From: Idiomarina loihiensis
Lineage (GTDB): Bacteria; Pseudomonadota; Gammaproteobacteria; Enterobacterales; Alteromonadaceae
NCBI RefSeq assembly: GCF_024584785.1
Contig: NZ_CP074112.1
Coordinates: 1,488,001-1,552,000, forward strand
DNA length: 64,000 bases
Direction: 5' to 3'
The position numbers and the translations under genes are program-made. A model generated the notes under the pieces. That model made no database searches and was not told the origin of the DNA. It saw nothing but the letters and a program-made list of their open reading frames with translations. Below are positions 7,056-61,461 of this stretch, in pieces (position 1 is the stretch's first letter; every line of letters begins with the position of its first letter).

Positions 7056-8351
7056 TTACTCCGTATCTGCTATTTTGCCCACAGTGTAAAACGACCCGCA
7101 AACCAATACCAGCGGTTGTTGTTGGTTACTCCCCTCGGGCGCGGGTGCAGCGGCAGCTAGAGCGGCGGCATAGGCACTTGCCACATCGGCAAAACAGCCA
7201 GCCACGTTAGCTGTGCTCGGCAGCTGTTGTTGCAGTTGCTCAGCTCGCGCACCACGTGGTTCGCTCAAATCGGCAAAGAACCACTGGGCAACCAGCGGCT
7301 GTAAGGTCGCTAGGGTGCCGGCAATATCTTTGTCTTGCAGCATCCCAACCACGGCTAACACGGGGCGCTCAGAATAACGCTGCCGCAGCACTTCCACTAA
7401 ATAGGCCGCCGCATGAGGATTATGAGCCACATCGAGTAAGGTATCCGCAGGACGCTGTGCCGTGGCTGCTAAAAACTGTAACCGACCCGGCTCACGCGCC
7501 TGCTCCAAGCCTTGCTTAATGGCGGTTAAAGTAACGGGTAGCGGCAACGCTGCTAAAGCAGCTACTGCCGTGGCTGCATTTGGTAAAGGCAATTGTGGTA
7601 ACGGCAAATCAAGCAGTTGTATTTCACTGTTGCGGAACTGCCAGTGCTGCGCATCTTGTGGTTTGTAGAAGAACTCATAACCGACTCGCTGCAGTTGTAC
7701 TTGCTGAGCTTGAGCCTGTTCTACTACGGCCGCTGGCAAATCAGGTTCACCGCAAATAGCCGGACGATGGGGTCTAAAAATACCCGCTTTTTCTCGTGCG
7801 ATACCAGTCCGGTCGGCCCCCAAAAAGCCAACGTGATCGATCCCCACACTGGTCAGCAAAGCAACATCCGCGTCGATAATATTCACCGCATCTAAGCGGC
7901 CTCCTAAGCCTATTTCTAACACCCAAACATCGAGGTTACGTTGCAGCATTAGCCACAATGCCGCTAAGGTGCCAAATTCAAAATAGGTTAACGAAATATC
8001 TCCCCGAGCAGCTTCTACTGCCGCAAAAGCCGCCACATGCTCAGCATCGCTGAGTTGTTCGCCATTAATACGCACGCGCTCGTTATAGCGATGCAAATGC
8101 GGAGAAATATAGACGCCAGTTTGATAGCCATCCGCGCGTAAGATAGTTTCGAGGTAACGCACCGTCGAACCTTTACCGTTAGTACCAGCAACGGTCATCA
8201 CTTTGGCGCTTGGCTGCAATAAATTGAGTTGCTCAGCAACCTGCTTCACTCGGTCTAAGCCCATGTCGATGGCTTGATGATGCAAGTGCTCTAAATAAGT
8301 CAGCCAGGCATGAAGCCCGGCTGATGTGGATGGAACAGAAAGCTGTGTCAT
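7056..8351 (-). CDS. folC: bifunctional dihydrofolate/folylpolyglutamate synthase
   Basis: Adds glutamate to dihydropteroate, and further glutamates to folates. The ATP-binding P-loop GTNGKGST is at about 57-64. FEFGTLAAL, LEIGLGGRLDAVNII and SVGIDHVGFLG follow as in Mur-ligase-fold FolC. The C-terminal domain contains LLDVAHNPHAA. The length of 431 residues is normal. It starts 4 bp after the accD stop and ends 3 bp before dedD, so accD-folC-dedD is one tight transcription unit. Confidence 0.97.
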   Translation of the reverse strand: MTQLSVPSTSAGLHAWLTYLEHLHHQAIDMGLDRVKQVAEQLNLLQPSAKVMTVAGTNGKGSTVRYLETILRADGYQTGVYISPHLHRYNERVRINGEQLSDAEHVAAFAAVEAARGDISLTYFEFGTLAALWLMLQRNLDVWVLEIGLGGRLDAVNIIDADVALLTSVGIDHVGFLGADRTGIAREKAGIFRPHRPAICGEPDLPAAVVEQAQAQQVQLQRVGYEFFYKPQDAQHWQFRNSEIQLLDLPLPQLPLPNAATAVAALAALPLPVTLTAIKQGLEQAREPGRLQFLAATAQRPADTLLDVAHNPHAAAYLVEVLRQRYSERPVLAVVGMLQDKDIAGTLATLQPLVAQWFFADLSEPRGARAEQLQQQLPSTANVAGCFADVASAYAAALAAAAPAPEGSNQQQPLVLVCGSFYTVGKIADTE

Positions 8352-8355
8352 AGGA

Positions 8356-9219
8356 TTAATATTCGTCGGCTACAGCCGGTAAGTTTTGGAACTTGGCCAA
8401 CAAGGACGCAATGGTATTTCGCATTTGGCGCCGATCAACAATCATATCAACAGCCCCATGGTCGAGTAAGAACTCAGCGCGTTGGAAGCCTTCTGGCAGC
8501 GTTTCGCGTACCGTCTGCTCAATCACTCGTGGCCCAGCAAAACCAATCAGAGCCTTGGGCTCTGCAATGTTCACATCACCCAACATGGCCAAACTAGCTG
8601 ATACGCCACCCATGGTTGGATCTGTCAGTACCGAAATGTAAGGCAAACCAGCTTCGCTCATGCGCGCTAACGCCGCTGATGTTTTTGCCATCTGCATCAA
8701 ACTCAGTAAGGCTTCTTGCATACGGGCGCCACCTGATGCTGAAAAACACACCAATGGAATCCGTTCTTGCAAACACACCTTGGCTGCTTCAGCAAAACGC
8801 GCACCAACCACGGATGCCATAGAACCACCCATGAATTCAAATTCAAACGCGACAGCCACCACCGGCATACCTTTTAAGGTACCTTTTTGCGCAACTAAGG
8901 CATCTTTCTCACCCGTAGCTTTTTGCGCAGCGGCAATACGATCTTTGTATTTTTTTGAGTCTCGAAACTTCAACACATCTTTCGGTTCAAGCTCAGCACC
9001 AATCTCGGTAACTTTACCTTCATCCAAAAAGTGCTTAAGCCGCATCCGCGCCGATACCCGCATGTGGTGATCACACTTAGGGCAGACATTCAGGCTACGC
9101 TCTAAATCAGCGCTGTACAAAATGGCATCACAACTGCTGCATTTGGCCCAAACTCCCTCGGGAATTTCACGCTTTTTGCTGCTCTTTGGTTTTGCAAGAA
9201 TTCGCTCAATCCAGCTCAT
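8356..9219 (-). CDS. accD: acetyl-CoA carboxylase carboxyltransferase subunit beta
   Basis: Beta subunit of the carboxyltransferase that forms malonyl-CoA, the first committed step of fatty acid synthesis. An N-terminal four-cysteine zinc ribbon (CSSCDAILY at about 27 and CPKCDHH at about 46) is followed by the crotonase-like domain with [23 protein letters not shown] and [16 protein letters not shown]. The 287 residues fit the family. The 83-bp gap from truA holds a 12-mer also found upstream of fabB, which may be a shared regulatory site. Confidence 0.97.
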
Positions 9220-9284
9220 AGTAATTCGCTTGTCTCAATAATTTAATGGCGCTATTAAAGCACATTCGTGCTTACTAGTTTAGC

Positions 9285-9296
9285 AAAAAGTGGTCT
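9285..9296. promoter_or_regulatory. 12-mer upstream of accD, shared with fabB
   Basis: AAAAAGTGGTCT lies 66 bp upstream of the accD start. The identical 12-mer occurs at 16034-16045, 38 bp upstream of the fabB end of its intergenic region, in the same orientation relative to the gene. The GTGGTCT core loosely resembles one arm of GntR-type (FadR/PdhR-like) operators. The extended accD copy matches about 10 of 13 defined positions of the E. coli FadR consensus as I recall it. Regulatory role is inference. Confidence 0.3.
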
Positions 9297-9302
9297 TAAC
9301 TG

Positions 9303-10133
9303 TTAGCCCCATACCACCGCACTGGGTAACCATAAGGGCCCAGGCTCTACCTGCGGTAAGTTAAAGTGGGCGGGGTAATCTACCTGCACCAAATACAATC
9401 CTTCGGCCTTCGCTGTAGCCGCAGCTTGGGTTCTATCTTTTCGCGCTAACACCTGGGCTGGCCACCCGACCGCTTGGCTACCTTTGCCTACTTCCAGCAA
9501 AGTGCCAACGATGTTACGTACCATATGATGCAAGAACGCATTGGCGGCAATATCGACCACGACAAAGTCGCCTAAGCGTTGCACTTGAATGTGGGTCACA
9601 CACCGATTCGGTGAATGAGATTGGCATTGCGCGGCACGAAACGAACTAAAATCATGCTCGCCTAGCAGCCCTTGCGCGGCGTCATGCATACGAGCTACAT
9701 CTAACGGCTGGTGATAATGACTTAAGCCCTGGCCTAAGATACCCGGCCGATAACGGCCATTGGCAATAATATAGCGGTAACGCCGTCCGGTCGCACTGAA
9801 GCGTGCGTTAAAATCATCCGCAACCGGTTGCGCCCAACGCACGGCCACGGTCGCTGGTAGATTGCTATTCACGCCCATGGTCCAGGCCGGCATAGCGCGC
9901 TCGAACTGGCAATCAAAGTGCACCACTTGTCCGGTCGCATGCACCCCTGCATCGGTACGTCCGGCACAGGTGACTTCAACCGGATGATTAGCCACTTTGC
10001 TTAACGCTTGTTCAAGTACTTGCTGTACTGAGATAACTTCGCGTTGTCGTTGCCAGCCATAAAAAGCGCTGCCATCGTATTCAATCCCTAAGGCTATGCG
10101 GGTGGTTCCGCTACTACTACCTTGCTCGGTCAT
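9303..10133 (-). CDS. truA: tRNA pseudouridine synthase A
   Basis: Converts uridines 38-40 of the tRNA anticodon arm to pseudouridine. The N-terminal [17 protein letters not shown] is typical of the family. The catalytic aspartate lies in [18 protein letters not shown], and the C-terminal part shows [17 protein letters not shown]. The 276 residues are of normal length. The ATG overlaps the fimV stop by 4 bp (ATGA), indicating translational coupling. The fimV-truA adjacency is common in Pseudomonas and marine gammaproteobacteria. Confidence 0.97.
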
Positions 10134-12319
10134 GCACCGTCCTGTTCATCTATCTGTTGCTGCAGCATAGCGATTTCACGCTGCAAATCTTCATCGTTAC
10201 TGGCATCAATAGCTAATAACTCAGCCCGCGCAGCAGCAAAATCACCCATGTCTAAATAGGTTTGGGCTAAATCCAGGTGATTTAGTGCGGTGTCTTCACC
10301 GGTGGGCAAACTGCCGGCTTCGCTCTCATAGAGGGTGTGTGAAAAATCATTGGCACCCTCGGCTTCCGCTTCTTCCAAGAGCTGCTCGATCGCTAAGTAG
10401 TCATCGTCTGAATCTTGTTGCGATAAATCGTATTCAGTTTGGCCTGCTGGCTCATCTTGCCAACTAGCTTCGCTGCTATCCTCGGCTTGTTCCAGCAAGG
10501 CAGCAAGATCCTCATCATCGCTTTCAACGAGCGAGGCCGGTTGGTATTCTTGTTGATACTGGTTTTCGTTATAGGCTTCATCGCCATAAGCTTTTCCGGC
10601 ATAGGCGCTATCACCAAATTCTTGATCCACGTAGCTACCGTCATCGGGCTCCTGCTCCGCAGCATTCGCTGCCGACAGATCTGAATCCTCCAACTCAAAT
10701 TCAATCAGGTTTTCCGCAGCAGATTCAGCAGTATCGGTTGGCTCAGCGTCACCACGAGTCTCTGCCGCAGCCGTAAACACCGCATCTTGCTCAGCAAACA
10801 AAGCCTCTAGCTCCGCATCCAAATCGTCAGGCTCGGCATCAAGTTCGGTGTCTAGCTCGGCATCGAGTTCGGTTTCTGGCTCGGCATCGAGCTCGGTTTC
10901 CAGCTCGGCATCGAGTTCGGTTTCCAACTCGGCATCGAGCTCGGTTTCCAACTCGGCATCGAGCTCGGTTTCCAACTCGGCATCAGGCTCGGCAGCTGTT
11001 GATGAATCTTGCGCTGCGGTTGCTTGGGGAGTGAATTCTAGTTCCGCATCCAAGTCTTGTAATGACTGTTCTAAGCTAGTTTCTGCGGCGTCAGTTTCGA
11101 CCTGCTCTTTGGCCAGCTCGGCCGCATCATCAGCCGCACTCTCAGCTTCACTCTCGGCCGCCGGCTCGGCCGCACTCTCGGCTGCATCATCAGCTTGAGC
11201 TGCATCTGCTGCTAAGGCGGTGACTCCGGCTGCTAACGCTGCTTGCTCGGCTTCTTCAAAGGCGCTGGGGACAGTTTCCAAGGTTGGCGCCACTTGCGAA
11301 CTTGCGGCATCTGCAACAGTGCCCCCCGCCACAGCACTGGCCGCAGCAGCACTGTCGGCGGCCACTGCCGATTGCTGCTCTCTGGCAGCAGCATCTAATG
11401 CACCTTTATACTGACTCGATTGCTGTTGTTGACGTTGTCGATAAAAACGATAGCCAAATAGCAACACCAACAGTAATGGTACCCCTACCACCAGTAACAG
11501 ATGCAGTGGCTGCATTAACCAAGCCAATAAACTTGGTTTAGCTGGGGCTGGTGGCTGTTGTCGGATAGACGCAGCTTGGTTGGCCTGTTCTGACTGCTCA
11601 GCAGCTACTGATGCCGCCGCTTGCAACGCTGCTGCAGTAGCATCCGCAGGAGTTTCAGTGGTAACACTTTCTTGTCGTTGAGCCGTCACTTCCGCACTGA
11701 TTTGCTGTTGTAACTCAGCTTCTGCTTGTTGCTCTGCATTAACTTTTAAGCGCAGCTCACCGAGCTCTTCAGTGACCGCTAACAACCGCTCATGCAACTC
11801 AAGATTTTGTCGCTGCAGTTGTTCAATTAACTCTATCGACTGGGCCAGCTGATTGCGTAATCCAGCCAGTTCACTAGGGGCTAAACCACCTGCAGCAGCG
11901 GCTTGGCTGGTTTGGCTTGCTGCCGGCTGAGCTGAGTTATCCCCCGCAGTCGGCTTTGGCTTAGCGACTGTAACCTCGGTCGTGGCAACCATGCCATCCG
12001 TGGGAATGGTTAGATAAAACCCATCCAACATATGGTCAGCAAGACCATTCGGGAACACCCGCGGGTTAGCTTCAATGATGAGGTCCATCATCTCGTACAC
12101 ATTGAGATCGCGCTTGTCGCTGTAATACATAGCTATGGTCCACAGCGTATCACTCGATACAATAGGGCCAAAGCGCTCAGCTTGCCAACGAGAGGCGGTC
12201 TGCGCCTGTCCAGCAAGCGCAATAGAGCTTGGCACAATGCTCGCCTGCGCCGCGACGCCAGCGATTGACAACGCTGCTACTACACTACTCAACAAGCTAC
12301 GCTTGATGTTCCGTTTCAT
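10130..12319 (-). CDS. fimV: FimV/HubP-family polar landmark protein
   Basis: Large inner-membrane protein that binds peptidoglycan and organises cell-pole complexes (type IV pili, chemotaxis, flagella) in Pseudomonas and Vibrio. A signal-peptide-like N-terminus is followed by the FimV N-terminal region and a LysM-like segment ([11 protein letters not shown] to [10 protein letters not shown], about 58-110). A coiled coil covers about 150-215, and a transmembrane helix ([20 protein letters not shown]) lies at about 272-292. A very acidic cytoplasmic region contains ELDAELET octapeptide repeats. The C-terminus has the TPR-like [20 protein letters not shown]. At 729 residues it is shorter than many homologues, and repeat number probably varies. 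Confidence 0.92.
10835..10986 (-). repeat. 24-bp tandem repeats inside fimV
   Basis: About six near-identical 24-bp units (plus-strand form CTCGGCATCGAGCTCGGTTT with a short variable end) encode repeated Glu-Leu-Asp-Ala-Glu-Leu-Glu-Thr octapeptides in the cytoplasmic acidic region of FimV. Because the length is a multiple of three, slippage would change copy number without shifting frame. The opposite strand gives a serine-rich open frame that I regard as an artefact. Confidence 0.85.
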
Positions 12320-48551: not shown

Positions 48552-48599
48552 CAACAGCACTAGCATGAGATAACTTTAAGCAATTTGCAGGAGATTCCT

Positions 48600-50867
48600 A
48601 TGGCAACCCAGACCTTCCAGTTACAACTAAGTGGTATGAGTTGCGCCGGCTGCGCTCGTAGTATCGAACGTGCACTACAAGAGGTACCTGGGGTTACCTC
48701 GGTGAATGTTAACTTTGCTAATGAAGTAGCCGCAGTTACTAGCACCAACAACAACGCAGACGGGCTAGTAGCTGCGGTACAGCAAGCTGGGTATGATGCA
48801 GCCCTGATTGACCACCAAAGCGCAACTCCCGCAGCCGACCCACGACAGCGAGCACAGCGTCAGCAATGGTACAAGTTTGTTGCTGCCGCTCTGTTATCGG
48901 CGCCGCTGCTGTACACCATGGTGGGCCACTTTAGTTTTACTGCCGGCATCTATGTGCCGGCTTGGTTGATGAACCCGTGGGTACAGATGGCGCTGGCTAC
49001 GCCCGTGCAGTTTATTATTGGCTGGCAGTTTTACAAGGGGAGTTACACCGCCCTGCGCGCCGGTGCTGCTAATATGGATGTGTTGGTCGCACTAGGTACC
49101 TCAGCTGCCTATTTTTACAGCGTCTACTTAGCGCTCACCGAAGGCGCTATGGCAGCTCATCAAGGGCTCTATTTTGAAACCAGTGCGGTACTTATCACGC
49201 TTATTTTACTCGGTAAATGGTTTGAAGCCCGTGCCAAAGGCCAATCTTCGGCAGCCATTAAGCAGTTGCTGCAACTACAACCTAAGCATGCCCTACGCCA
49301 GCAAGCCGATGGTTCAGCCAAGCTGACGCCCATTGCCGAACTGGTGGTCGGGGATATTATTCACATTAAACCCGGCCAACAGATTCCGGCTGACAGCGAA
49401 GTGATTGAAGGCACCACCAGCGTTGACGAAGCCATGCTTACCGGTGAAAGTGTGCCCGCCGACAAGCAACCCGGCGATACCTTGGTGGCCGGCTCTATTA
49501 ACAAACAAGGCTTTGTTAAAGCTAAAGTCAGCAAGTTAGGAAAAGACTCGGCGCTGGCGCAAATCATCGCTATTGTCGAGCAAGCACAAAACTCCAAAGC
49601 GCCCATTCAACGGCTTGCCGATAAAGTGTCGGCCATCTTTGTACCTGTGGTCTTAGTTATTGCTTTAATGACGTTCTTGGTCTGGCTGTTATGGCTGGCA
49701 CCGGGCGACTATCGCAGTGCCTTAGAGGCGACTGTCGCCGTGTTAGTGATTGCTTGCCCGTGCGCTCTGGGTTTGGCCACGCCAACATCGATTATGGCTG
49801 GCTCTGGCCGCGCCGCGCAAATGGGCATCTTGTTCAAGCAAAGTGATGTGTTAGAAATCACCCATAGTGTTACCACTGTGGTGCTGGACAAAACGGGCAC
49901 TATCACCGCTGGCACCCCCACTCTTACGGATTTAGAAATCGATCTCAAAGGCATCCAAGAACTCACGCCAGAGCAGTTACGCGCCGCAGTGCAAGCGCTT
50001 GAAGTACAATCTGAGCACCCACTAGCGCAAGCGATTGCGACTGGTATTGAGGTTGATTCTAGCACCGCCAAGATGGTGCAATTAACAGATTTTACCGCCC
50101 ATACCGGGCGCGGTGTATCAGCGCAAGTGCAACTTGTGCACACTGATACTGACGCTGAGCAACCATCAACCAGCCATCACTTACAGATTGGTAACTTGCG
50201 TTTAATGCGCGAGCACAATATTGAAAGTGACGCTTGGAGTGCGCGCCAACAAGAATTAGAAGAGCAAGGCAAAACTGCCATGTTAATTAGCTGGGATAAA
50301 CAGCTGGTAGGTATTGTCGCCGTAGCAGATACCGTGCGCGAGCATGCAGCCGAGGCTATTGCAGCACTACAACAGCGCGGCTTAAAAGTGGTGATGTTAA
50401 CCGGTGACAACCAACGCACCGCCGCTGCGATTGCGGCCCAAGTAGGAATCACCGAGGTCCGCGCTAATGTCTTACCTGAACACAAAGCTGCTGCCGTCGC
50501 TGAGTTGCAGCAACAGGGCGACATCGTGGCCATGGTGGGTGATGGTATTAATGATGCGCCGGCTTTGGCGACTGCTAACGTTGGCATTGCCATGGGCACA
50601 GGTACCGACGTTGCTCTAGAAACCGCGGATATTGCCCTGATGCGGGCCGATTTACGCTCGTTGCTACACGCCTTAGAGATTAGCGAAAAAACCGTGGGTA
50701 ACATCCGACAAAACTTATTCTGGGCCTTTGCGTATAACACGTTAGGAATACCGATTGCGGCCTCTGGCCTACTCGCACCTTGGTTAGCAGGTGGCGCTAT
50801 GGCGTTAAGTTCAGTCTCTGTCGTATTAAATGCGTTAAGGTTGCAAAAGTTACGATTGAACTCCTAA
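48600..50867 (+). CDS. copA: copper-exporting P1B-type ATPase
   Basis: Copper export pump of 755 residues. One N-terminal heavy-metal domain with CxxC (C15 and C18 in GMSCAGCA), then eight membrane helices. The transmembrane ion site is C386-P387-C388 (ACPCALGLATP) and the phosphorylated aspartate is D430 in DKTGTITAG. TGE in LTGESVPADK, GDNQRTAAAIA and MVGDGINDAPAL complete the P-type ATPase core. AGGAG lies 7 bp before the ATG at 48600, after yciK on the same strand. No CueR-like operator is evident. Confidence 0.96.
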   Translation: MATQTFQLQLSGMSCAGCARSIERALQEVPGVTSVNVNFANEVAAVTSTNNNADGLVAAVQQAGYDAALIDHQSATPAADPRQRAQRQQWYKFVAAALLSAPLLYTMVGHFSFTAGIYVPAWLMNPWVQMALATPVQFIIGWQFYKGSYTALRAGAANMDVLVALGTSAAYFYSVYLALTEGAMAAHQGLYFETSAVLITLILLGKWFEARAKGQSSAAIKQLLQLQPKHALRQQADGSAKLTPIAELVVGDIIHIKPGQQIPADSEVIEGTTSVDEAMLTGESVPADKQPGDTLVAGSINKQGFVKAKVSKLGKDSALAQIIAIVEQAQNSKAPIQRLADKVSAIFVPVVLVIALMTFLVWLLWLAPGDYRSALEATVAVLVIACPCALGLATPTSIMAGSGRAAQMGILFKQSDVLEITHSVTTVVLDKTGTITAGTPTLTDLEIDLKGIQELTPEQLRAAVQALEVQSEHPLAQAIATGIEVDSSTAKMVQLTDFTAHTGRGVSAQVQLVHTDTDAEQPSTSHHLQIGNLRLMREHNIESDAWSARQQELEEQGKTAMLISWDKQLVGIVAVADTVREHAAEAIAALQQRGLKVVMLTGDNQRTAAAIAAQVGITEVRANVLPEHKAAAVAELQQQGDIVAMVGDGINDAPALATANVGIAMGTGTDVALETADIALMRADLRSLLHALEISEKTVGNIRQNLFWAFAYNTLGIPIAASGLLAPWLAGGAMALSSVSVVLNALRLQKLRLNS

Positions 50868-50970: not shown

Positions 50971-51942
50971 ATGATGTTAAGCGCACTTACTTTGGCAGCA
51001 AGCCTGACCCTGATTCCCACGAAAGCTGACGTGAATTGGATTGGTGTTAGTGTTCCTAACCCTGATGTGATTTGGCTAAGCGGTTCGAACTCGCATATTG
51101 CTCGCAGTAGTGATGCTGGCGAGACCTGGGAGTATTTTCAGCCGGCCACCCAGAATCTCCAATTTCGTGATATTGAGGCCCTCGATGCCAACCATGCGTA
51201 TGCGTTAAGCATTGGCAATAATGGCGATTCGCGTATCTATTACACCAGCAACGGTGGCCGTAATTGGCAATTGCGCTATCGCGCGGGCGGTAATCAATTT
51301 CTCAATTGTATGGCGCTATCCGCCACCAACGAAGCTTGGGTTTATGGTGACACGGTAGAAAACCGTTGGAACATGGTGCGCAGTGTAGACGGTCGCAACT
51401 GGCTTACCGCCAGCAACATGGTTGATACCCAACCGCTTTCCGATGAAGGTGGCCTAGCTGCAAGTGGTGGCTGTTTACGTCACAACAATGGCATTTGGGC
51501 GATTGGTACTGCCAACGGCAACACTGCCCGCTTGCTGGTTAAACGTAATTTTGGCATTCGCTTTAAAGCTATCGATACGCCGTTACCGGCAGGCCCTAGT
51601 GCTGGCATTGCCAGTGTTTGGCCGTTTAGCGAAAAGCATATCCTGTTGGCTGGCGGCAGCTTGAACCATGCCGATGCGAAACCACGCTTGGTAGAGTATA
51701 AAGACGACCAGTTTACCACCCTAATCGAGCCACCATTGAGCGGCGCCTTGTATAGCCTAACGGTGCGCAATGATGGCAGCATCCTGGTCACCAACCCCAC
51801 CGGTGCGGCGTTACTCAATAGCAGCAGAGATGCTTGGCAGACCCTCGCCGAAGCCAATATTTGGAATAGCGCCTGCAGCACTAACAGCTGTTATCTGGTA
51901 GGAAAAGACGGCTACCTCGCAAAAGTTACTTTTGGCCAATAG
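50971..51942 (+). CDS. exported beta-propeller protein, unknown function
   Basis: Protein of 323 residues with a hydrophobic N-terminus (MMLSALTLAASLTLIP, then KADVN) that looks like a signal peptide. The rest contains repeated Asp-box/BNR-like segments (RSSDAGETWEYFQ, YTSNGGRNWQLRY, RSVDGRNWLTAS), giving a sialidase-like or Ycf48-like six-bladed propeller. No sialidase catalytic set (Arg triad, Asp, Glu/Tyr) is obvious, so enzymatic activity is not claimed. It follows copA by 103 bp on the same strand. It ends close to a convergent fusion gene. Confidence 0.75.
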   Translation: MMLSALTLAASLTLIPTKADVNWIGVSVPNPDVIWLSGSNSHIARSSDAGETWEYFQPATQNLQFRDIEALDANHAYALSIGNNGDSRIYYTSNGGRNWQLRYRAGGNQFLNCMALSATNEAWVYGDTVENRWNMVRSVDGRNWLTASNMVDTQPLSDEGGLAASGGCLRHNNGIWAIGTANGNTARLLVKRNFGIRFKAIDTPLPAGPSAGIASVWPFSEKHILLAGGSLNHADAKPRLVEYKDDQFTTLIEPPLSGALYSLTVRNDGSILVTNPTGAALLNSSRDAWQTLAEANIWNSACSTNSCYLVGKDGYLAKVTFGQ

Positions 51943-51984
51943 CTTTTATCAAATAACTTTCACGCCAAAATTTTCACCCCAAAA

Positions 51985-52003
51985 TGCCGGCTTTAGCACC
52001 GGC
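51985..52003 (-). terminator. possible terminator after the desulfurase fusion gene
   Basis: On the minus strand GCCGG and CCGGC arms enclose TGCTAAAG, followed by ATTTTGG. The T run is short, so this is weak. It would end the nqr-fusion operon. Confidence 0.4.
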
Positions 52004-52013
52004 CAACTTAACT

Positions 52014-54125
52014 TTAGCTGGCCAGTAACAAGGCGGTGCCGCCATTTAGATGGCTGACTTGGCTAAACCCAAGCCGAGCCAGCACCCGAGCTGCCACAGC
52101 ACTGCGATGCCCAGAGCGACAGACACAGACAATCGGCCGCTGCTGATAGCTTTCACGGTGCTCATAAATGAACTGCGCCAAACGCGTTAACGGCACGTTG
52201 ATTACCTCGGCCGCTAAACCCAAGTCACTCACTGCAAATTCTTGCTGCTCACGTACATCAATCACCAAGGTATCGGGCTTGCTGAGCCACTCTTGCTGAG
52301 CTTCTAGATCAACATCCACTAACTCACAGTTAACGCAATGACCAGCTAATTCGCACCAGCGCTGAGTGATACGAAAATCATCATCGGCCCGGCTTAACAA
52401 CAAGGTGTTGTCATGTACCATCGAGCGAATCAGTTCTGGCTGCTGAATGTCACCGATAAAGGCAAAGTCTACTTCTGCAGGAGCGTCCGTAGTAAGCGGC
52501 GAGCTTAACAAATACACCGGTTGGCGCGTGCCCACGCGAAACAGGCGGCGCTGTCCTACAGCTAAGCAGCCCTCTACCGTGGCGGCGCAGCCCAATGGCA
52601 CATCACAGCCACCGTTGTATGCCTGCGGCCAACCCACGGCATCAAGGTCCGCTTGCGCTACCTCACAACTCAGTAATTGGGCTAACATCGCCGCGGGGCT
52701 ATTAGCCGGCTGTGGCTCAGTGGTGAGCACCGCCTTCACACAATAATGCTGGCAAGCCACCAACCGTTCGATCCGCTCGGCTAATTCAGGCAAGGGGTCG
52801 ATAACCACCATTTCTTTGGCGGCTTTATCAATCAATAAATAGCAGCACTGATTGCCAAACCTTAGTTGCACCACACCATCCAGATTAGAATCAATATCTT
52901 CACTGGTATCTGCAATCAATAAGCATGACTGGCGTAAGGCATGAGCCGCCGTTTGAATCCGCTCACACGCGGCCTTGATGGTGGCAGCTTCGGTGGCTGG
53001 CCCAAAGGATAATCGAATCGCTGAACATGAGCGCCAATCTTCAAGCCCCATGGCATCTAACACAAAGCTACGAGTGACACCTGAGCTGCAGGCCGAACCT
53101 GAACTGACTCGAATGTTAGCCGCATCAAATACATCCATGATGTCGCGTGATGCCATGCCACGTACCGAAAAATTAAGCGTGGTAGGCAGGCTCAAATCAA
53201 AATCGTGATTCAGCTCTAGGGTAGGAAAGGCCTGCTTTAACGCAGCTAATAATTGGTCCCGATACTCACAAAGGGTTGCGGTCGATTTAAAAACTTGCTG
53301 TTGATCGTTAAGCAATAACTCAAACAGCGCATGTAAAGCGGCAATGCCCGGTAGGTTCTCCGTTCCAGACCGCTGTCCTTGCTCTTGTCCACCACCAATA
53401 ATCAGGGGCGTAAATGGCGCTGCTTGGCGCACGTATAAAAAGCCGATGCCTTTGGGGCCGTACAACTTGTGGCCACTAAAAGGAGCATAATCGATGCTGG
53501 TTTGTGCTAATTCTAGCTTTAACTTACCCAAGGCCTGCACGCAATCCACCATCCAAGGAATGGTTGGGTTATTGCTACGGATCACTTGTTCTAACTGGGC
53601 TAAATCTTGTTGTACACCAGTTTCGTTGTTGGCAGCCATGGTACAAATCATGTGGGCTGCGCCTACATGCTCGGCAATAAAGTCTAGATCTAACAGACCT
53701 TGACGGTTAACCGGAATAGCTTTGAGCTCGGCATTCAAACGTAAAATATTGTTCCAGTGCTCGAGCGCTTGCGGCACCGCTTTGTGCTCAGTAGCTCCGT
53801 ACAAAAGCCAACAACGCTGACCATGATCGGTATTTCTAGCATGCGTAAGGGCCGATAACACCGCTGTTTGAATGCCTTCGGTAGCACCGCTGGTGAAAAT
53901 AAAACGGCCAAGCCCTGCGCCAACTAGCTGGCGTCCTAGCCGGCGGGTACTATCGAGAATATAACGTGCTTGCAGCCCAGTGATATGACTACTGCTGGGG
54001 TTTCCAAAGACATGCTCCATCACGTGCCGAACGGCCTGAGCAATTTGCGGTAACACCGGCGTCGTTGCGTTGCAATCGAGGTAAATTTCTGCCGTTTTCG
54101 GCTTAATCTGAACCGGTGTTACCAT
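52014..54125 (-). CDS. cysteine desulfurase / degenerate MBL / rhodanese fusion protein
   Basis: Three-domain protein of 703 residues. Domain 1 (about 12-395) is a class V PLP cysteine desulfurase: YLDCNATTPVLP, ATEHKAV, AANNETGVQQ, PLP lysine K220 in SGHKLYGPKGIG and nucleophile C346 in SSGSACSSG. Domain 2 (about 412-605) has the layout of an ETHE1-type persulfide dioxygenase (YLLIDKAAKEMVVIDP) but lacks the zinc motif: TTEPQPA replaces THxHADH. It is cysteine-rich (11 Cys). Domain 3 (about 615-703) is a rhodanese with active cysteine C669 in CVCRSGHRS. It lies 38 bp after nqrM on the same strand with a good AGGGAG site, so is probably the last gene of the nqr operon. A role in sulfur supply is inference. 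Confidence 0.88.
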   Translation of the reverse strand: MVTPVQIKPKTAEIYLDCNATTPVLPQIAQAVRHVMEHVFGNPSSSHITGLQARYILDSTRRLGRQLVGAGLGRFIFTSGATEGIQTAVLSALTHARNTDHGQRCWLLYGATEHKAVPQALEHWNNILRLNAELKAIPVNRQGLLDLDFIAEHVGAAHMICTMAANNETGVQQDLAQLEQVIRSNNPTIPWMVDCVQALGKLKLELAQTSIDYAPFSGHKLYGPKGIGFLYVRQAAPFTPLIIGGGQEQGQRSGTENLPGIAALHALFELLLNDQQQVFKSTATLCEYRDQLLAALKQAFPTLELNHDFDLSLPTTLNFSVRGMASRDIMDVFDAANIRVSSGSACSSGVTRSFVLDAMGLEDWRSCSAIRLSFGPATEAATIKAACERIQTAAHALRQSCLLIADTSEDIDSNLDGVVQLRFGNQCCYLLIDKAAKEMVVIDPLPELAERIERLVACQHYCVKAVLTTEPQPANSPAAMLAQLLSCEVAQADLDAVGWPQAYNGGCDVPLGCAATVEGCLAVGQRRLFRVGTRQPVYLLSSPLTTDAPAEVDFAFIGDIQQPELIRSMVHDNTLLLSRADDDFRITQRWCELAGHCVNCELVDVDLEAQQEWLSKPDTLVIDVREQQEFAVSDLGLAAEVINVPLTRLAQFIYEHRESYQQRPIVCVCRSGHRSAVAARVLARLGFSQVSHLNGGTALLLAS

Positions 54126-54163
54126 GGTACTACTCCCTTAATTAGATTTTAAAACTTGCACCT

Positions 54164-54412
54164 TTACGAATCTATACGGTTATCTTGCCAAAGTTTTTCT
54201 TTGGCTGCACGTTTTGCGGCGGCCTTTTCTTCAGCAGCTATCTTGGCCTTGCGCTCGTCACAAGGGTCTTTGCAGTCACAAGCTTTATCCATACCTAAGG
54301 CAGAAATGCCACCACAACTTCCCGAAATGGTTTTACGCTGGGCAATAAACCCAACCGACATGGCTAACACCACTACTAGCATGATGCCGAATACTGCTAA
54401 AAACACTCCCAT
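54164..54412 (-). CDS. nqrM: Na+-NQR maturation factor NqrM
   Basis: Small membrane protein of 82 residues. One N-terminal helix (about 2-24, VFLAVFGIMLVVVLAMSVGF) is followed by cysteines in SGSCGGISALGMD and ACDCKDPCD. The family (DUF539) is needed for NQR assembly, possibly delivering iron to the NqrD/NqrE cysteine site. It lies 14 bp after apbE, as in Vibrio, and precedes the desulfurase fusion gene. Confidence 0.95.
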   Translation of the reverse strand: MGVFLAVFGIMLVVVLAMSVGFIAQRKTISGSCGGISALGMDKACDCKDPCDERKAKIAAEEKAAAKRAAKEKLWQDNRIDS

Positions 54413-54426
54413 ACTACCCCCTTCGG

Positions 54427-55449
54427 TTACTGCTGATACTGCTTAAATGCAGTACTGCTTTCTTCTTTAAAGCCTTCGGCCTCGCGGCTAATTAGTAACA
54501 CCGCCAAGCCCTTTTGCTCGGCAAAGGCTAACGCTCGTTCTGGCCCCATCACCGTCAATGCAGTCGCATAGGCGTCGGCATCCATACTGGTGGGCGCTAC
54601 CACGGTAACCGACACCAAATTATGTTGAATAGGATAGCCGGTACGCGGATCGATAATATGCGAATAACGCACACCATCTTCTTCGTAGTAATTACGATAA
54701 TCACCAGAAGTTGCGATACCTGCATCGCCCGGCTCAATCACCCGTTGCACGCTGCGCTCAGAAGTGACCGGCTTTTCTATTGCAATGCGCCAAGGTTGAT
54801 TACCTGGCTTAGTGCCACGCGTGCGCATCTCACCACCAATCTCAACGAGATAATTGGTGATTTCCATCTGCTCCAACAATACTGCGACGCGATCCACGCC
54901 ATAGCCCTTGGCAATGGTCGATAAATCAATATAAATCTCGGGCTTAGCTTTACGTAACTGGTGGTTTTCAACATGAACATGCTGATACCCCACCTCCTCT
55001 AACATCGCTTGCAGCTCGGCCTCTGTGGGCTTACGCTCTGGCTTAGCCAGTGGCCCAAAGCCCCATAGATTAACTAATGGCCCGACCGTAACATCAAGTA
55101 CGCCATCGGTTTCATTGGCAATTTCTAGCGCGCGTCGAATCACAGTTTCTAACGACCGCGAAATAACCACCGGCTCTGTCGTTTGACGGCTATTAAACAA
55201 CGATAGTTCCGATTGCGGGTCGTAAGTCGACATCTGGCTGTTTACTTGCTCCAGCACCGCATCCACTCGTTGCTTCACTTGTTCAGGGCTATGCTGCGGA
55301 TTCGCCGTAACATAAGAGATGTGATAGGTCGTCCCCATCGTCTTACCAGACACCGCCAATTGTTGCGGCGCATGGGTACAAGAAACGAAAAAGGCTAGCC
55401 CCACTAGGGCTAGCCAAACTCGTAGCATTGATGAACGGGTTGTTTTCAT
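54427..55449 (-). CDS. apbE: FAD:protein FMN transferase ApbE
   Basis: Periplasmic lipoprotein (lipobox FVSC at about 28) of 340 residues. It attaches FMN covalently to threonines of NqrB and NqrC. Family motifs are SGKTMGTTYHISY, DVTVGPLVNLWGFGP, YIDLSTIAKGYGVD and GDAGIATSGDYRNY, plus HIIDPRTGYPI, with the C-terminal SMDADAYATALTVMG. The preferred ATG at 55449 follows GGAAAAGAG; the in-frame GTG at 55464 is less likely. It is immediately downstream of nqrF, as in many NQR operons. Confidence 0.96.
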   Translation of the reverse strand: MKTTRSSMLRVWLALVGLAFFVSCTHAPQQLAVSGKTMGTTYHISYVTANPQHSPEQVKQRVDAVLEQVNSQMSTYDPQSELSLFNSRQTTEPVVISRSLETVIRRALEIANETDGVLDVTVGPLVNLWGFGPLAKPERKPTEAELQAMLEEVGYQHVHVENHQLRKAKPEIYIDLSTIAKGYGVDRVAVLLEQMEITNYLVEIGGEMRTRGTKPGNQPWRIAIEKPVTSERSVQRVIEPGDAGIATSGDYRNYYEEDGVRYSHIIDPRTGYPIQHNLVSVTVVAPTSMDADAYATALTVMGPERALAFAEQKGLAVLLISREAEGFKEESSTAFKQYQQ

Positions 55450-55499
55450 CAGGCTCTTTTCCACCTTTAAATCAGGCTATTAAAGGGGCTAAGCCAAGC

Positions 55500-56741
55500 T
55501 TAGCCACCAAAGTCATCCAATAGGATGTTTTCATCTTCTACGCCCAAATCTTTGAGCATTTTAATAACTGCTGCGTTCATCATCGGTGGTCCACACATGT
55601 AGAACTCACAATCTTCAGGCGCATCATGATCCTTCAGATAGTTTTCGTACAACACGTTATGGATAAAGCCGGTGTAACCTTCCCAGTTATCTTCTGGTTG
55701 TGGGTCAGACAAGGCCACATGCCATTCAAAGTTGTCGTTTTCACGCGCCAACATGTCGAAATCTTCCACGTAGAACATTTCTTTCTTAGAACGTGCACCG
55801 TACCAGAAAGTCATCTTACGGTCGGTTTTCAGACGACGTAATTGGTCAAAGATGTGTGAACGCATCGGCGCCATACCAGCACCACCACCAACAAACACCA
55901 TTTCTGCTTTGGTGTCCTTAGCAAAGAATTCACCAAATGGACCAGAAATCGTTACTTTGTCGCCAGCTTTCAAGCTGAAAATGTACGATGACATTTTGCC
56001 TGGCGGTAAGCTCATATCACGTGGCGGAGGCGTAGCGATACGCACGTTCAACATGATAATGCCTTTCTCATCTGGGTAGTTCGCCATCGAGTAAGCACGA
56101 ATGGTCTCTTCGTCAACTTTAGATTCTAAGTTAAAGAAGCCAAAGTGTTCCCAGTCACCACGGAATTTATCTTCAATCTCGAAGTCTTTAAATTTCACGT
56201 GATGCGGTGGACATTCGATCTGAATATAACCACCGGCGCGGAAAGGTACTTCTTCGCCTTCTGGCAACTGCACCACAAACTCTTTGATGAAGGTGGCTAC
56301 GTTGTTGTTAGACTTAACCGTACAATCCCACTTGCGAATACCAAACACTTCTTCTGGAAGCTCGATTTTCATATCTTGCTTCACGTTTACCTGACACGAT
56401 AAACGGCAGCCTTCACGAGCTTCTTTGCGGTTAATGTGATCACGTTCGGTAGGCAGAATATCACCGCCACCCTCTTTGATAATCACGCGGCATTGGCCAC
56501 ATGAACCACCACCACCACAAGCTGACGATACGAAGATACCAGCATTAGCTAAGGCGCCTAATAATTTAGTACCTGGCTGCGTGGTAATCTTCTTGTCTTC
56601 GTCATCATTAATTAAAATCTCGACATCACCCTGAGGCACTAATTTTGATTTGGCGACCATGATCACCGCCACTAAAATTAATACAATCAAGGTAAACATG
56701 CCTACGCCGAGCGCTATAAGTGTTAAATCTTGCCCTTGCAT
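55500..56741 (-). CDS. nqrF: Na+-NQR subunit F
   Basis: NADH-oxidising subunit of 413 residues. One N-terminal transmembrane helix (about 10-30), then a 2Fe-2S ferredoxin domain with cysteines in [13 protein letters not shown] and GCRLSCQ. The FAD and NADH domains of the ferredoxin reductase type follow: [41 protein letters not shown] and [11 protein letters not shown]. The 2Fe-2S cluster is a candidate client of the nearby desulfurase. The length is normal. Confidence 0.98.
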
Positions 56742-56787
56742 CGACTCGTACCTCTTGTTAATCCGTTGTTATCGTTACCGGTGCTTG

Positions 56788-57396
56788 TTACAGGGATACG
56801 CCAGAGAATGACATAAAGCCCAATCCAATCAGACCAACTGAAATAAAGGTAATACCTAAACCGCGTAAACCATCTGGTACATCGGCGTATTTCAGTTTCT
56901 CACGCACTGCTGCCAAGGCAACAATGGCAAGGGCCCAGCCGATACCGCTACCGATACCGTAAACCACACTTTCAGTGAAGTTATAATCACGCTCAACCAT
57001 GAAGGACACACCACCAAAGATAGCGCAGTTCACGGTAATCAAAGGTAAGAAGATACCTAACGCGTTGTACAAAGCTGGTACGTATTTGTCTAATGCCATT
57101 TCCAAAATCTGTACCAACGCTGCAATAACGCCGATAAAGGTTAAGAAACGCAAGAAACTCAAGTCTGCATCAGGGAAACCAGCCCAATCTAACGCACCCG
57201 GCGCCAAAATGTTGTGGTAAACCAAGTTATTCACCGGTACTGAAATGCCCAGTACAACGATTACTGCAACGCCCAAACCAAAAGCTGTGGTTACTTTCTT
57301 TGATACTGCCAAGAAAGTACACATACCTAGGAAGAACGATAACGCTAAGTTTTCAACGAAAATCGATTTAATAAATAAACTGATATAAGCTTCCAT
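56788..57396 (-). CDS. nqrE: Na+-NQR subunit E
   Basis: Integral membrane subunit of 202 residues with six hydrophobic helices. The N-terminal [31 protein letters not shown] contains the conserved cysteine used in the NqrD/NqrE iron site, and a second cysteine occurs in [10 protein letters not shown]. Pairs with NqrD in the membrane. Order nqrD-nqrE-nqrF matches Vibrio. Confidence 0.97.
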
Positions 57397-57406
57397 GGTC
57401 TGCTCC

Positions 57407-58039
57407 TTATTCCTTCGGCTCTACTTGTTCGGTACGGAAGGTACGCAGTACCCAAATAAAACCACCGATAATAAAGAACGCACTTGGTGGCAATACCAAC
57501 AAACCGATCGGCTGATACCAGCCGCCTTCAGAAGCTAGCTGCATGATCTGATAACCGAACAGGCTACCTGATCCGAACAGCTCACGAATAAAGCCCACGG
57601 TTAACAACACCACCGAGTAACCTAAGCCGTTACCAATACCGTCCAAGAACGATAAGCCTGGAGTACTCTTCATCGCATAGGCTTCAGCACGGCCCATAAC
57701 GATACAGTTGGTAATAATCAAACCAACGAATACCGACAGTTCTTTGGCGATGCTGTAGGCGTAAGCACGCAGGATTTGGTCAACCACGATAACCAAGCTG
57801 GCAATGATCGTCATTTGCACAATAATCCGTACACTCGAAGGAATGTGGTTACGGATAATTGAGATAAACAAGTTAGAAAATGCCGTTACTAAGGTTAGTG
57901 CAATACACATAACCAAAGTATTTTCCATTTTTGACGTTACTGCCAACGCCGAGCAAATACCTAAGATTTGTAAGGCAATTGGGTTATTGGCAAAAATCGG
58001 TCCAAACAGAACCTCTTTGACTTCTTTTGCACTCGCCAT
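57407..58039 (-). CDS. nqrD: Na+-NQR subunit D
   Basis: Membrane subunit of 210 residues with about six helices. Conserved cysteines lie in [16 protein letters not shown] and [18 protein letters not shown]. Together with NqrE it forms the intramembrane iron centre. It overlaps the nqrC stop by 1 bp (TAATG), indicating coupled translation. It ends 10 bp before nqrE. Confidence 0.97.
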
Positions 58040-58815
58040 TAGTTCAGCTCCCCTTTGCGAATTTTGTCAAATAGCGGGCCGTAAGCCTTGTCGCTAAACC
58101 AGAACTGCATGGTGTTTTCAACACCGTTGCTGGTTAAGGTTGCACCAGACAGTGCATCTACGTCATGAGCTTGGTCAGTCACGTTTTTCGTCACGTTAAG
58201 AGCAACCTCGCCGTCGGCGTAGATTTCTTTACCCTGCCAGCTGGCAGCCCAGTTTGGATTCTGGATTTCGCCACCTAACCCTGGAGTTTCAGTGTGCTCG
58301 TAGTAGTTGATACCTTTGATGGTGTTCATGTCAGGTGCCACTGCCATGAAGCCGTACATGGTACCCCACAAGCCGTAGCCGCGAACAAACACAACGACTG
58401 TCTCTAACTCGCCTTGGGCATCATTGATAAAATAGACTTTAGCTACATCTTCACGAGAACCGATACCAGCTTCGTCATCAGCTTTATCTAATTTAGTGCC
58501 CAAACCTGCTTTTTTAGCAGACGCGATAGGATCGTAGTCCGTGGCATTTTTGCCGTCTACAGATTCAACTTCTTCGAGCGTATTAAGGTTGAATAAACGC
58601 GTCTCTACGCGCTGCTCAAACAGCTCGATAACGTTAGTTTCTGGGGTTAATAAACCTGCAGCATCTAACACGTTACGTTGCATGTCTAGCGCAGCGTTCT
58701 TCTGTTGTAAAGGCTTCAAGCCAACCGCAGAACCTGCCACGATTATCGCGCACACTAAACAGAGGGCGATAACCACAAACAGCGTTTTGCCTAGTGATTC
58801 ATTTTTATTAGCCAT
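58039..58815 (-). CDS. nqrC: Na+-NQR subunit C
   Basis: Periplasm-facing FMN subunit of 258 residues. One N-terminal transmembrane helix (about 10-31), then the FMN-binding domain with the flavinylation motif [14 protein letters not shown], where ApbE attaches FMN to threonine, near the C-terminus. The frame continues upstream to 58875, but [13 protein letters not shown] is the true start, overlapping the nqrB stop by 8 bp. Confidence 0.96.
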
Positions 58816-60007
58816 TGCGTGCCAGTCTCCGTTTAATGTTTGATTGAACAACAAAGTGGTCAAACAGCGGGGCAAATACGTTAGAGAATAAAATCGCTAA
58901 CATAATACCTTCTGGATACGCAGGGTTTACCACTCGGATAAGTACCGTCATGGCACCAATTAAGAAGCCATAATAAAACTTACCTTTGTTGGTGAATGAG
59001 GCTGACACTGGGTCCGTTGCCATAAACATCATACCGAAGGCAAAACCACCTACCACCAGGTGCCAGTACCAAGGCATAGCAAACATCGGGTTGCTGTCAC
59101 TGCCAATCACGTTGAACAATAATGACAACGCGACCATACCTACAAACACACCTGATACGATGCGCCATGAGGCAATACGGAAGTAAATCAGTGCTAAACC
59201 GCCAATCAGAATCATCAGGGTAGATACTTCGCCCATTGAACCTTGGATATTACCTAAGAAGGCATCCATCCATAAATCCATATTAGCAATGTAATCAGTG
59301 CCCTGAGTTGCTTGGCTTAGCAAAGTAGCGCCAGAGTAGCCGTCAACTGCAGTCCATACTTGCTCACCAGAGATAGACGCTGGGAAGGCAAAGTACAAGA
59401 ATGCACGACCGGTTAAGGCTGGGTTCAAGAAGTTACGGCCAGTACCGCCAAACACTTCTTTACCAATCACCACACCAAAGGTAATACCTAAGGCTACTTG
59501 CCATAACGGCATGGTTGCGGGCAAGGTTAAGGCAAACAGAACTGACGTGACGAAGAAGCCTTCGTTGATTTCGTGCTTACGTACAGAAGCAAATAAAACT
59601 TCCCAGAAACCACCCACAATAAAGGTTGTCGCGTACACAGGTACAAAGAAGCAGGCGCCATAGAACAGTTTACCGGCCCAGCCAGCGGTAGCTAGATCAC
59701 CACCTAAGGCAGTAAAAATACCTACTTGCCAGATATCAGCTAACTGATAACCGTCAGTTAAGGCTAATGCCGCTTGGTTACCGATGTTGTACATACCCCA
59801 GAACATCGCTGGGAAAGTCATCATCCACACCAAAATCATGATGCGTTTTAGGTCAACGCTATCTTTAACGTGGGTAATGCCTTTGGTCACTTTACCTGGC
59901 GTATAGAAAATAGTTGCCGCTGCTTCGTATAAGGCATAGAACTTCTCGTACTTGCCGCCTTTCTCGAAGTTTGGCTCAATTTTCTCAAGAAAATGTTTCA
60001 AGCCCAT
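58808..60007 (-). CDS. nqrB: Na+-NQR subunit B
   Basis: Large membrane subunit of 399 residues with about ten helices. It carries the second covalent FMN site, with the motif [15 protein letters not shown]. Other conserved blocks are [27 protein letters not shown] and [14 protein letters not shown]. It starts 2 bp after the nqrA stop, so is translationally linked. Confidence 0.98.
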
Positions 60008-60009
60008 GA

Positions 60010-61350
60010 TTAGCCCTCTTTCTCAATTTCGGTCAACATGTTACGTAACACCGGACCGTACTCATATTTGCCTGGGCAAACATAAGAACAGAGCGCTAAA
60101 TCCTCTTCGTCGAGTTCTAAACAGCCTAACTTTTGCGCCTGTTCAGTATCGCCAGAGAGCAAGTCACGTAGCAAAATCGTTGGTAAAATATCAAGCGGCA
60201 TCACGCGCTCATAGTTGCCGATTGGCACCATTGAACGATCTGAACCGTTGGTGGTAGTCGTCATCGCAAACAACTTTTTAGGTGACAAATGACCCAAGTA
60301 TGCACGCGTAACTGAGTGTTGGTTTGAACCAGGCTTGATCCAACCAAAGAATTCTTTCTGATCACCCTCAGGCAACACACTCACTTGGGTATGGAAACGA
60401 CCTAACCACTGATGAGCATCGTCAACTTTGTGACCGTTTAGTACTGAGCCAGAAATAATCCGGTTTTTACCCTGCGCCAACTCACCTTTGGTTAGTTCAC
60501 GCAAGTTTGCGCCCATCCGAGTACGCAATAACCGAGGTTTTTTCGTACCAGGGCCGGCTAAAGCAACCACACGGTCGGTGTAAACCTGGCCGGTGGTGAA
60601 TAATTTACCGTAGGCAATCACGTCTTGATAACCGATGTGCCAAACCTGCTTGGCCATAGATACCGGCTGTAAGAAATGAATATGAGTACCTACCAGACCA
60701 GCAGGATGCGGACCAGCAAAGGTCTCTAATTGAACCTTAGCATGACCCACATCAACTTTTGCATCAGCAGCTTTCGCCACAAACACCTTACCTTTGGTTA
60801 ACGTGGTTAACAGGTTCAGACCGTCGATAAAGGCTTGTTGCTCTTGGCTGATGATTACAGCTGGGTCGGCCGCTAACGGATTGGTGTCCATCGCATTCAC
60901 GAAGATCGCAGTAGGCTCTGCGTCTAGCTTCGGCGAACGACTAAAAGGTCGCGTACGTAAGGCTACCCATTGACCCGCATTGTTCAATTGCTCAACCACT
61001 TGGTCGCGCGGCAAACTAGCTAAGTCTTTACTGTCGTAGCTGGCAAACGTTTCTTGCTCATCACCGTCAATTTCAATAATAACGGCTTGTAACACACGTT
61101 TGGCGCCACGCATCACGTCTTTTACAACGCCAGCAGCTGGTGCAGTGAATTTAATTCCTGGGTTTTTCTTATCTTCGAAAAGTACCTGGCCTTTTTTGAC
61201 GCGGTCCTCAACCTTAACCTGCATGGTTGGGCGCATCCCCACATACTCTTCACCCAGTACGGCAACGGTGGTGATGGCTTGACCATCATCAATAGCTTGT
61301 TGGGGCATTCCCGAGATTGGGATATTTAGCCCTTTTTTGATCGTAATCAT
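60010..61350 (-). CDS. nqrA: Na+-NQR subunit A
   Basis: Ubiquinone-interacting cytosolic subunit of 446 residues. The N-terminal [17 protein letters not shown] and [34 protein letters not shown] and [11 protein letters not shown]-like segments are typical. It is the first gene of the operon. An upstream in-frame GTG at 61362 exists, but the ATG at 61350 is the normal start. The 245-bp gap upstream contains a weak promoter. Confidence 0.97.
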
Positions 61351-61461
61351 ACGCGTTTGCACTACTCGTTAGGGAAGATTAATCTCATTCCAGCCACGCC
61401 GTACGCATTTCTCCGCACGCCGCGACTGACCAAATTCTGTCCATTTTCACCTAGGGCCGGC

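Follow-up and report, generated by a model that had tools for sequence, protein, structure and literature searches.

What does a cysteine desulfurase fused to a rhodanese do directly behind the genes of the Na+-translocating NADH:quinone oxidoreductase (NQR)? This question is raised by a 703-residue protein encoded in a 64,000-nucleotide stretch of the Idiomarina loihiensis genome (contig NZ_CP074112.1, positions 1,488,001 to 1,552,000; the whole stretch is called the window below), which belongs to a 2.90 Mb assembly in a single contig. The original prediction, made from the letters of the window, was that the protein may be a dedicated NQR maturation factor. Our results favor another explanation, which we regard as likely, if well short of certain: the protein would be a two-step persulfide relay that descended from a desulfurase-persulfide dioxygenase-rhodanese fusion, with the persulfide dioxygenase (PDO) dead and the gene inserted behind nqrM. 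The chemistry of this relay is deduced by analogy with characterized enzymes. The features of the fusion gene are as follows.

52014..54125, minus strand: the fusion gene, 703 amino acids with an ATG start, encoding a cysteine desulfurase, an inactivated PDO-type metallo-β-lactamase (MBL) domain and a rhodanese
52971..54086, minus strand: class-V aminotransferase/cysteine desulfurase domain, residues 14-385 (PF00266, E = 1.7e-54)
53466..53468, minus strand: K220, the predicted pyridoxal phosphate (PLP) lysine, aligned to 1ecx and the IscS-type chain 3lvj
53088..53090, minus strand: C346, the predicted persulfide-forming cysteine in the SSGSAC loop, assigned by conservation
52326..52928, minus strand: inactivated PDO-type MBL domain, residues ~400-600, assigned by its fold match to BpPRF and ETHE1, with no Pfam match
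52566..52607, minus strand: cysteines C507, C513 and C520, gained in the clade according to the alignment
52035..52295, minus strand: rhodanese domain, residues 611-697 (PF00581, E = 9.2e-11)
52119..52121, minus strand: C669, the rhodanese active-site cysteine in the CRSGHRS loop, assigned by conservation

A Pfam scan of the protein recognized only Aminotran_5 and Rhodanese, leaving the stretch between them without a family. In a PDB search with the desulfurase domain, NifS/IscS-type enzymes matched with a best E-value of 8.3e-52. K220, C346 and C669 were each kept in all 29 sequences from Idiomarina and Pseudidiomarina (window included) and in all 51 sequences from outside this clade. These alignment counts and those given below for ligands and cysteines compare the same two sets, drawn from named loci that are the best 80 of at least 588 confirmed relatives; one locus lacking a full open reading frame (ORF), L192, was left out. 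Because the sequences are related to each other, the counts should not be read as independent events. With an Aminotran_5 domain, a PLP lysine and a catalytic cysteine in the SSGSAC loop, the window protein qualifies as a class-I cysteine desulfurase at the superfamily level. The original prediction had described three sulfur-chemistry modules on one chain, in which the desulfurase keeps its active site (K220, C346) and so does the rhodanese (C669), and both statements agree with the Pfam matches at the two ends, the MBL fold in the middle and the conservation of the three residues.

The middle domain had been called a degenerate MBL domain, a description that our structural comparison upholds and specifies. 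A sequence search against the PDB with residues 398-608 alone gave no match. The AlphaFold2 model of residues 398-703 reached a mean pLDDT of 90.5, and its best PDB match by E-value in Foldseek was BpPRF, the PDO-rhodanese fusion of Burkholderia phytofirmans (E = 2.4e-12), with TM-scores that are low over the two-domain length (0.32-0.40). The homologues outside the nqr-linked genera have ~740-810 residues, and most of them carry THxHxDH, GHT, GD, GRTNF-like and HDY motifs in the middle of the protein (for this motif survey, 121 sequences were reduced to 98 by merging those alike over their final 500 residues). A profile built from C-terminal halves, in which 33 of the 36 rows are sequences not belonging to the clade, matched BpPRF across both domains (E = 1.7e-38), and BpPRF was also the best PDB match for the predicted structure of the C-terminal half of the Shewanella insulae homologue (pLDDT 89.5, E = 4.0e-21). 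From the profile and fold matches to BpPRF and the PDO motifs of the outside homologues, we assign the family the order desulfurase-PDO-rhodanese, and the ancestor of the window protein was probably such a fusion. The intact homologues likely oxidize persulfide to sulfite.

The iron site of the dioxygenase is lost in the clade of the window. The iron ligands of the Acidithiobacillus caldus PDO are H57, H113 and D130, as given in PMC6060420, and we carried these roles onto our alignment by motif. The first ligand histidine is present in none of the 29 clade sequences versus 50 of the 51 outside homologues. The GHT histidine falls into a gap in 29/29 and is kept in 50/51, the ligand aspartate remains in two clade sequences, the window among them, versus 51/51 outside, and the HDY histidine in 1/29 versus 51/51. 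The ETHE1-type site of two histidines and one aspartate (first His of THxHxDH, GHT His and GD Asp) is thus incomplete in every member of the clade. The THxHxDH motif itself varies among the outside homologues, where D is missing in 15/51 and the last H in 15/51, with the first histidine kept in the 50 noted above. When we used one Shewanella PDO domain as a query against the window genome, the only other match was a glyoxalase-II-like ORF, and no second PDO was found. Any persulfide made by the window protein is therefore probably not oxidized by such a PDO.

Erosion of the middle domain went further in a third genus. We compared three genus groups, the window's own (Pseudidiomarina, 26 genomes), Idiomarina (19 genomes) and a third genus (g106, 17 genomes), which we guess to be Aliidiomarina. 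The first two names rest on gene coordinates shared with named records, for example those of P. woesei (G319) and I. fontislapidosi (G372). In nine genomes of the third genus the gene has open frames of 587-625 residues, in which no PDO motif aligns. Between the SFGP and DVRE motifs, five of these proteins have 144-148 residues, compared with 250 in the window and ~309 in S. insulae, so that the middle domain is ~100 residues shorter than that of the window. Because this middle does not align, the third genus stands outside the counts of 29 and 51 sequences. Two third-genus proteins were scanned by Pfam; one gave a rhodanese match below the cut-off and the other none. In a gene tree with an IscS outgroup, the third genus fell outside all other sequences. 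We read this position as a long-branch pull, because in a tree without IscS the grouping of all nqr-linked rows was not rejected and had the better likelihood (approximately unbiased test, p = 0.715).

A sample of 295 genomes of the order contained homologues in 32, and a sample of 246 genomes of the family in 96 (E ≤ 1e-60; both counts include the window genome). A sparser class-wide sample matched only the window genome (1/369), in a search whose stricter threshold (1e-95) and limit of two scored candidates per genome would miss distant triple fusions. In the window's own genus group, 25 of 26 genomes, the window included, gave a match, with identities of 62-77% besides the window and one split draft, which excludes chance. 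All but one of these 25 matches are uninterrupted by a stop; the remaining one, in the 77%-complete draft G312, lies in two pieces. The genera among the named homologues include Shewanella, Colwellia, Thalassotalea, Thalassomonas, Pseudoalteromonas, Rheinheimera, Psychrobium and Paraglaciecola. A search for plasmid records gave three from Pseudoalteromonas and led nowhere.

How, then, did the gene come to stand behind nqrM? The setting in the window is listed here.

54126..54163, minus strand: the 38 bp that separate nqrM from the fusion gene; AAGGGAG stands 7 nt upstream of the fusion-gene ATG
54164..54412, minus strand: nqrM (PF04400, E = 4.1e-21), the sole PF04400 match in the genome
54427..55464, minus strand: apbE, the flavin transferase gene of the nqr operon (PF02424, E = 1.9e-97)
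55500..61362, minus strand: ORFs taken to be nqrF, nqrE, nqrD, nqrC, nqrB and nqrA, names that we presume from position rather than from a family search; relatives show the same order
50971..51942, plus strand: a convergent gene with weak YCF48/BNR-type repeat matches (PF14870, 22.6 bits, below the cut-off of 27), outside the fusion system

The gene order agrees with what had been predicted: the fusion gene lies on the same strand as the nqr genes, 38 bp beyond nqrM, with a good ribosome-binding site. A scan of the gap found no terminator-like site on the minus strand, again as predicted, and a scan of window positions 51500-55600 found no sigma-70-like promoter on that strand; a promoter in the gap had been named beforehand as an observation that would count against the original prediction. 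The fusion gene is probably co-transcribed with nqr. Its placement at the end of the nqr operon also holds well beyond the window. It lies directly 3' of nqrM in all 25 gene-bearing Pseudidiomarina genomes, in the 10 Idiomarina genomes examined out of 18 that bear the gene, and in all nine gene-bearing third-genus genomes, giving 44/44 across three genera. Measured to the start of the longest ORF, the gap to nqrM spans 0-185 bp across 28 named loci. In an AT-rich near-palindrome of the GTTATAA...TATAAC type, present in this gap in five Idiomarina loci (L147, L148, L149, L150 and L155), we see a possible operator or promoter of the fusion gene's own.

In the homologues examined outside the three genera the linkage disappears. 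No nqr gene was seen near the homologue in 44 outside loci, viewed with flanks of at most 8 kb. Among 51 named outside loci with up to 10 kb of flank, nine of which have less than 3 kb on at least one side, nqrA-E were found near none and nqrF within 3 kb of none, with an NqrF-like gene farther off in three. The two sets partly show the same genomes. The linkage to nqr and the clade coincide. The identical position of the gene across the linked genera speaks for a single insertion, and the linkage probably goes back to one ancient event within a collinear stretch. The window has 37 ORFs with 90 or more residues over 47 kb, and 28 of them occur in the same order in the third-genus genome G490, the one genome pair that we compared; nine are unmatched, one of which is an antisense ORF over nqrM. 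In this pair the linkage to nqr shows no excess over background gene order. Since the surrounding genes are collinear between the genera as well, adjacency to nqrM is weak evidence for a functional tie, and we dropped bare adjacency as support for a role in NQR because neighboring genes are also conserved.

Genomes that lack the fusion gene take the place of a deletion mutant here, and they too point away from a dedicated NQR factor. The gene is absent from one of 26 Pseudidiomarina genomes (G309), one of 19 Idiomarina genomes (G537) and eight of 17 third-genus genomes, and all ten of these genomes have nqrA-F and nqrM in order. A BNR-like gene stands convergent and at most 70 bp past nqrM in seven of the ten. 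In the 12 genomes checked, ten of them the gene-less ones, every cysteine of NqrD, NqrE and NqrM is present in all, as are seven of the nine cysteines of NqrF, including the CxxxxxCxxC...C motif. We assume that the cysteines of NqrD, NqrE and NqrF bind the clusters. On a tree of NqrA/B/D/E/F, the presence and absence of the fusion gene needs four changes, the direction being less clear in the third genus; G537 falls within Idiomarina, beside the gene-bearing I. aquatica (SH-aLRT 99). The window genome further contains a second desulfurase-like gene and a gene cluster resembling iscR-iscS-iscU-hscB, all named by ORF reading. As a separate observation, the ApbE encoded between nqrF and nqrM is strongly diverged in third-genus loci (L208-L215 and L223-L234; 25-31% identity, 287 residues in L208), and ApbE gives no match in several genomes of this genus, though NqrB and NqrC are present there.

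These results do not sustain the idea of a dedicated NQR maturation factor. Such a factor would be expected wherever NQR is, and ten genomes of three genera do without the gene while retaining nqrA-F and nqrM together with the presumed cluster-binding cysteines. The co-occurrence with nqrM is thus incomplete. Homologues occurring mostly without nqr genes had been named beforehand as an observation against the original prediction, and the homologues examined outside these genera were indeed not in an nqr operon. We rejected the dedicated factor on the grounds of these natural absences, the background gene order and the lack of nqr linkage in the outside homologues examined; the absences, the gene order and the isc-like cluster all speak against NQR needing the fusion gene. 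A softer version is that of an accessory, perhaps condition-dependent factor that would work with NqrM in supplying persulfide for the [2Fe-2S] cluster of NqrF or for the NqrD/NqrE cluster, being useful without being indispensable. The constant position behind nqrM in all 44 gene-bearing genomes, the short gaps, the lack of a promoter-like site in the 38 bp of the window and the loss of the PDO in the same lineage as the nqr linkage are what one would expect of it, and according to a review (PMC12174285) NqrM appears to be required for the intramembrane [2Fe-2S] cluster of NQR. Passages of that review name apbE and nqrM behind nqrF in Vibrio cholerae and mention no desulfurase. Together with the complete nqr sets of the gene-less genomes, the 28 collinear ORFs, the unlinked outside homologues and the isc-like genes, this makes even the accessory role unlikely in our view. 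We give still less credence to a variant in which the middle domain was rebuilt around C507, C513 and C520 as a persulfide or metal way-station and the enzyme is an optional sulfur source for NQR.

Another candidate role, without any tie to NQR, is that of an enzyme of cysteine or cyst(e)ine stress, which would turn excess cysteine sulfur into H2S or low-molecular-weight persulfide, the position behind nqr setting only its expression level. The ancestral architecture looks catabolic, and the ten absences, with their four changes on the NQR tree, would suit a dispensable function of this kind. Some intact homologues have suggestive, if sparse, neighbors: in the 51 named outside loci, a TauE/SafE gene lies within 3 kb in two (and in one further locus, L030), a DSP/BLH-phosphatase-like gene in eight, all from Shewanella, and an Lrp/AsnC regulator in one. 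However, such neighbors are few and mostly genus-bound, we saw none of them close to the window gene, and the stress enzyme differs from the relay mainly in its acceptor, so we hold it to be improbable as a distinct explanation. The other genes within 3 kb in these loci are DUF386 of the YhcH type (15), NnrS (6) and a FadR-like gene (5), again mostly genus-bound. In the window genome, a single-domain rhodanese comes after a TauE/SafE-like ORF, near a glyoxalase-II-like ORF, at ~527-530 kb (L005 and L242); judged by ORF reading, this region is possibly another sulfur locus. Could the gene instead be a relic, decaying first in its dioxygenase and then in the rest, with nothing left to select? 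The stepwise erosion, the absences in all three genera and the missing or sub-threshold rhodanese matches in the two scanned third-genus proteins fit this, but the active residues of desulfurase and rhodanese are invariant in all 29 clade sequences, 24 of 25 Pseudidiomarina matches have no stop, and the ratios of nonsynonymous to synonymous substitution rates (dN/dS) are 0.014-0.072 in all domains where they could be measured. A relic is therefore very unlikely. Least credible of all is a middle domain that still works as a PDO with other ligands. The MBL fold appears to be retained in the model, but none of the 29 clade sequences has either iron-ligand histidine, the GHT and GRTNF segments are gapped in the window, and in the A. 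caldus enzyme even the iron-ligand variant that suffered least retained no more than 5-6% activity (PMC6060420). We rejected this candidate because the ligand histidines are gone.

The persulfide relay thus remains our preferred explanation. A NifS/IscS-type desulfurase with PLP on K220 would move the sulfur of L-cysteine to C346, the C346 persulfide would be passed to C669 with the rhodanese as its acceptor, and the C669 persulfide could then be handed to thiol acceptors, either glutathione or proteins. We infer both the direction of the sulfur flow and the acceptors. The ancestral triple fusion may have taken cysteine sulfur to sulfite or thiosulfate on a single chain. The Idiomarinaceae lineage would have seen the gene inserted behind nqrM, probably once, and the iron site of the dioxygenase lost, so that the remaining middle domain may serve as a shortened spacer that still folds and has acquired three cysteines. 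By analogy with a known fusion, the window protein probably takes sulfur from cysteine and passes it on. The closest experimentally tested protein known to us is the natural CD-Rhd fusion of Pseudorhodoferax (WP_056898193.1; PMC8931425). It was bifunctional when assayed, the desulfurase activity decreased about tenfold with glutathione or β-mercaptoethanol when the rhodanese cysteine was removed, and the wild type transpersulfidated a model protein.

Several observations weigh against the relay as drawn here. The window protein scores far below the NCBIfam equivalog cut-offs for NifS (265 versus 530.75 bits), IscS (215.2 versus 643.2) and DndA (220.1 versus 480), and because none of them is cleared, the sulfur acceptors cannot be read from the family. 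The Pseudorhodoferax CD-Rhd is a two-domain protein of ~54 kDa (PMC8931425), unlike the window protein with its additional spacer of ~200 residues made of a dead PDO with new cysteines. Those cysteines, C507 in 27/29, C513 in 25/29 and C520 in 27/29 of the clade versus 0/51, 0/51 and 1/51 outside, hint that the middle domain may do more than spacing. PDO loss also occurs beyond the nqr-linked genes. One homologue without nqr linkage, L122 (genome G530, 7812-10220), has also lost all PDO motifs, apparently independently of the nqr-linked clade, so the coupling between nqr linkage and a dead PDO is inexact. Finally, dS was saturated for at least one domain in 10 of the 12 Idiomarinaceae pairs, and for this reason the case for selection rests on little. 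In the two pairs with dS estimable in every domain, which share a species, the desulfurase had dN/dS of 0.040 and 0.054, the middle domain 0.032 and 0.072, and the rhodanese 0.014 in both. Such low values suggest, on thin evidence, that all three domains are under constraint.

A few features of the surroundings deserve mention. The YCF48/BNR-like convergent gene is a constant neighbor of the fusion gene in the 29 named Idiomarina and Pseudidiomarina loci and adjoins it in all three genera. Further along, a P-type metal ATPase (window 48585-50867, plus strand, by ORF reading) occurs in 17 of these 29 loci, all from Pseudidiomarina or metagenome-assembled genomes, and in none of the nine Idiomarina-type loci. 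Just past nqrF, the opening codons of apbE contain a hairpin of 10 pairs with TTTTTCGTTT after it (window 55393-55415, minus strand); this is coding sequence, yet it resembles a terminator or attenuator.

We found no description of a desulfurase-PDO-rhodanese triple fusion in the open-licence papers searched. The intact homologues appear to unite the conversion of cysteine to persulfide, of persulfide to sulfite and sulfane transfer on one chain. The Idiomarinaceae offer a series in which an enzyme loses its oxidase and keeps both transferases, making the role of the middle domain testable by comparison, and the ten gene-less relatives with nqrA-F and nqrM make the NQR idea addressable in existing rather than engineered strains.

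Among known systems, pairwise versions of the fusion are already on record, namely CD-Rhd and the PDO-rhodanese protein BpPRF. The window protein shares with IscS/NifS class-I desulfurases the domain, the PLP lysine and the catalytic cysteine, in contrast to its scores far under their equivalog cut-offs and its identity of only 34% to the host IscS-like protein. With NqrM and ApbE, which are NQR maturation factors, it shares the gene block behind nqrF, whereas it belongs to different Pfam families and nqrM is retained in ten genomes without it. The MBL fold is that of ETHE1-type persulfide dioxygenases (PDB 4chl, 4ysb and 8zbd), suggesting a shared ancestry, although the window clade lacks the ligand histidines and the window itself retains the aspartate. 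BpPRF (PDB 5ve3-5ve5), whose PDO is an active enzyme, has the same MBL-then-rhodanese order and fold; unlike the window protein, it has 373-377 residues without a desulfurase domain, and the window PDO has lost its ligand histidines. The Pseudorhodoferax CD-Rhd likewise places desulfurase before rhodanese on one chain with both catalytic cysteines, the equivalents of C346 and C669, a likeness in architecture.

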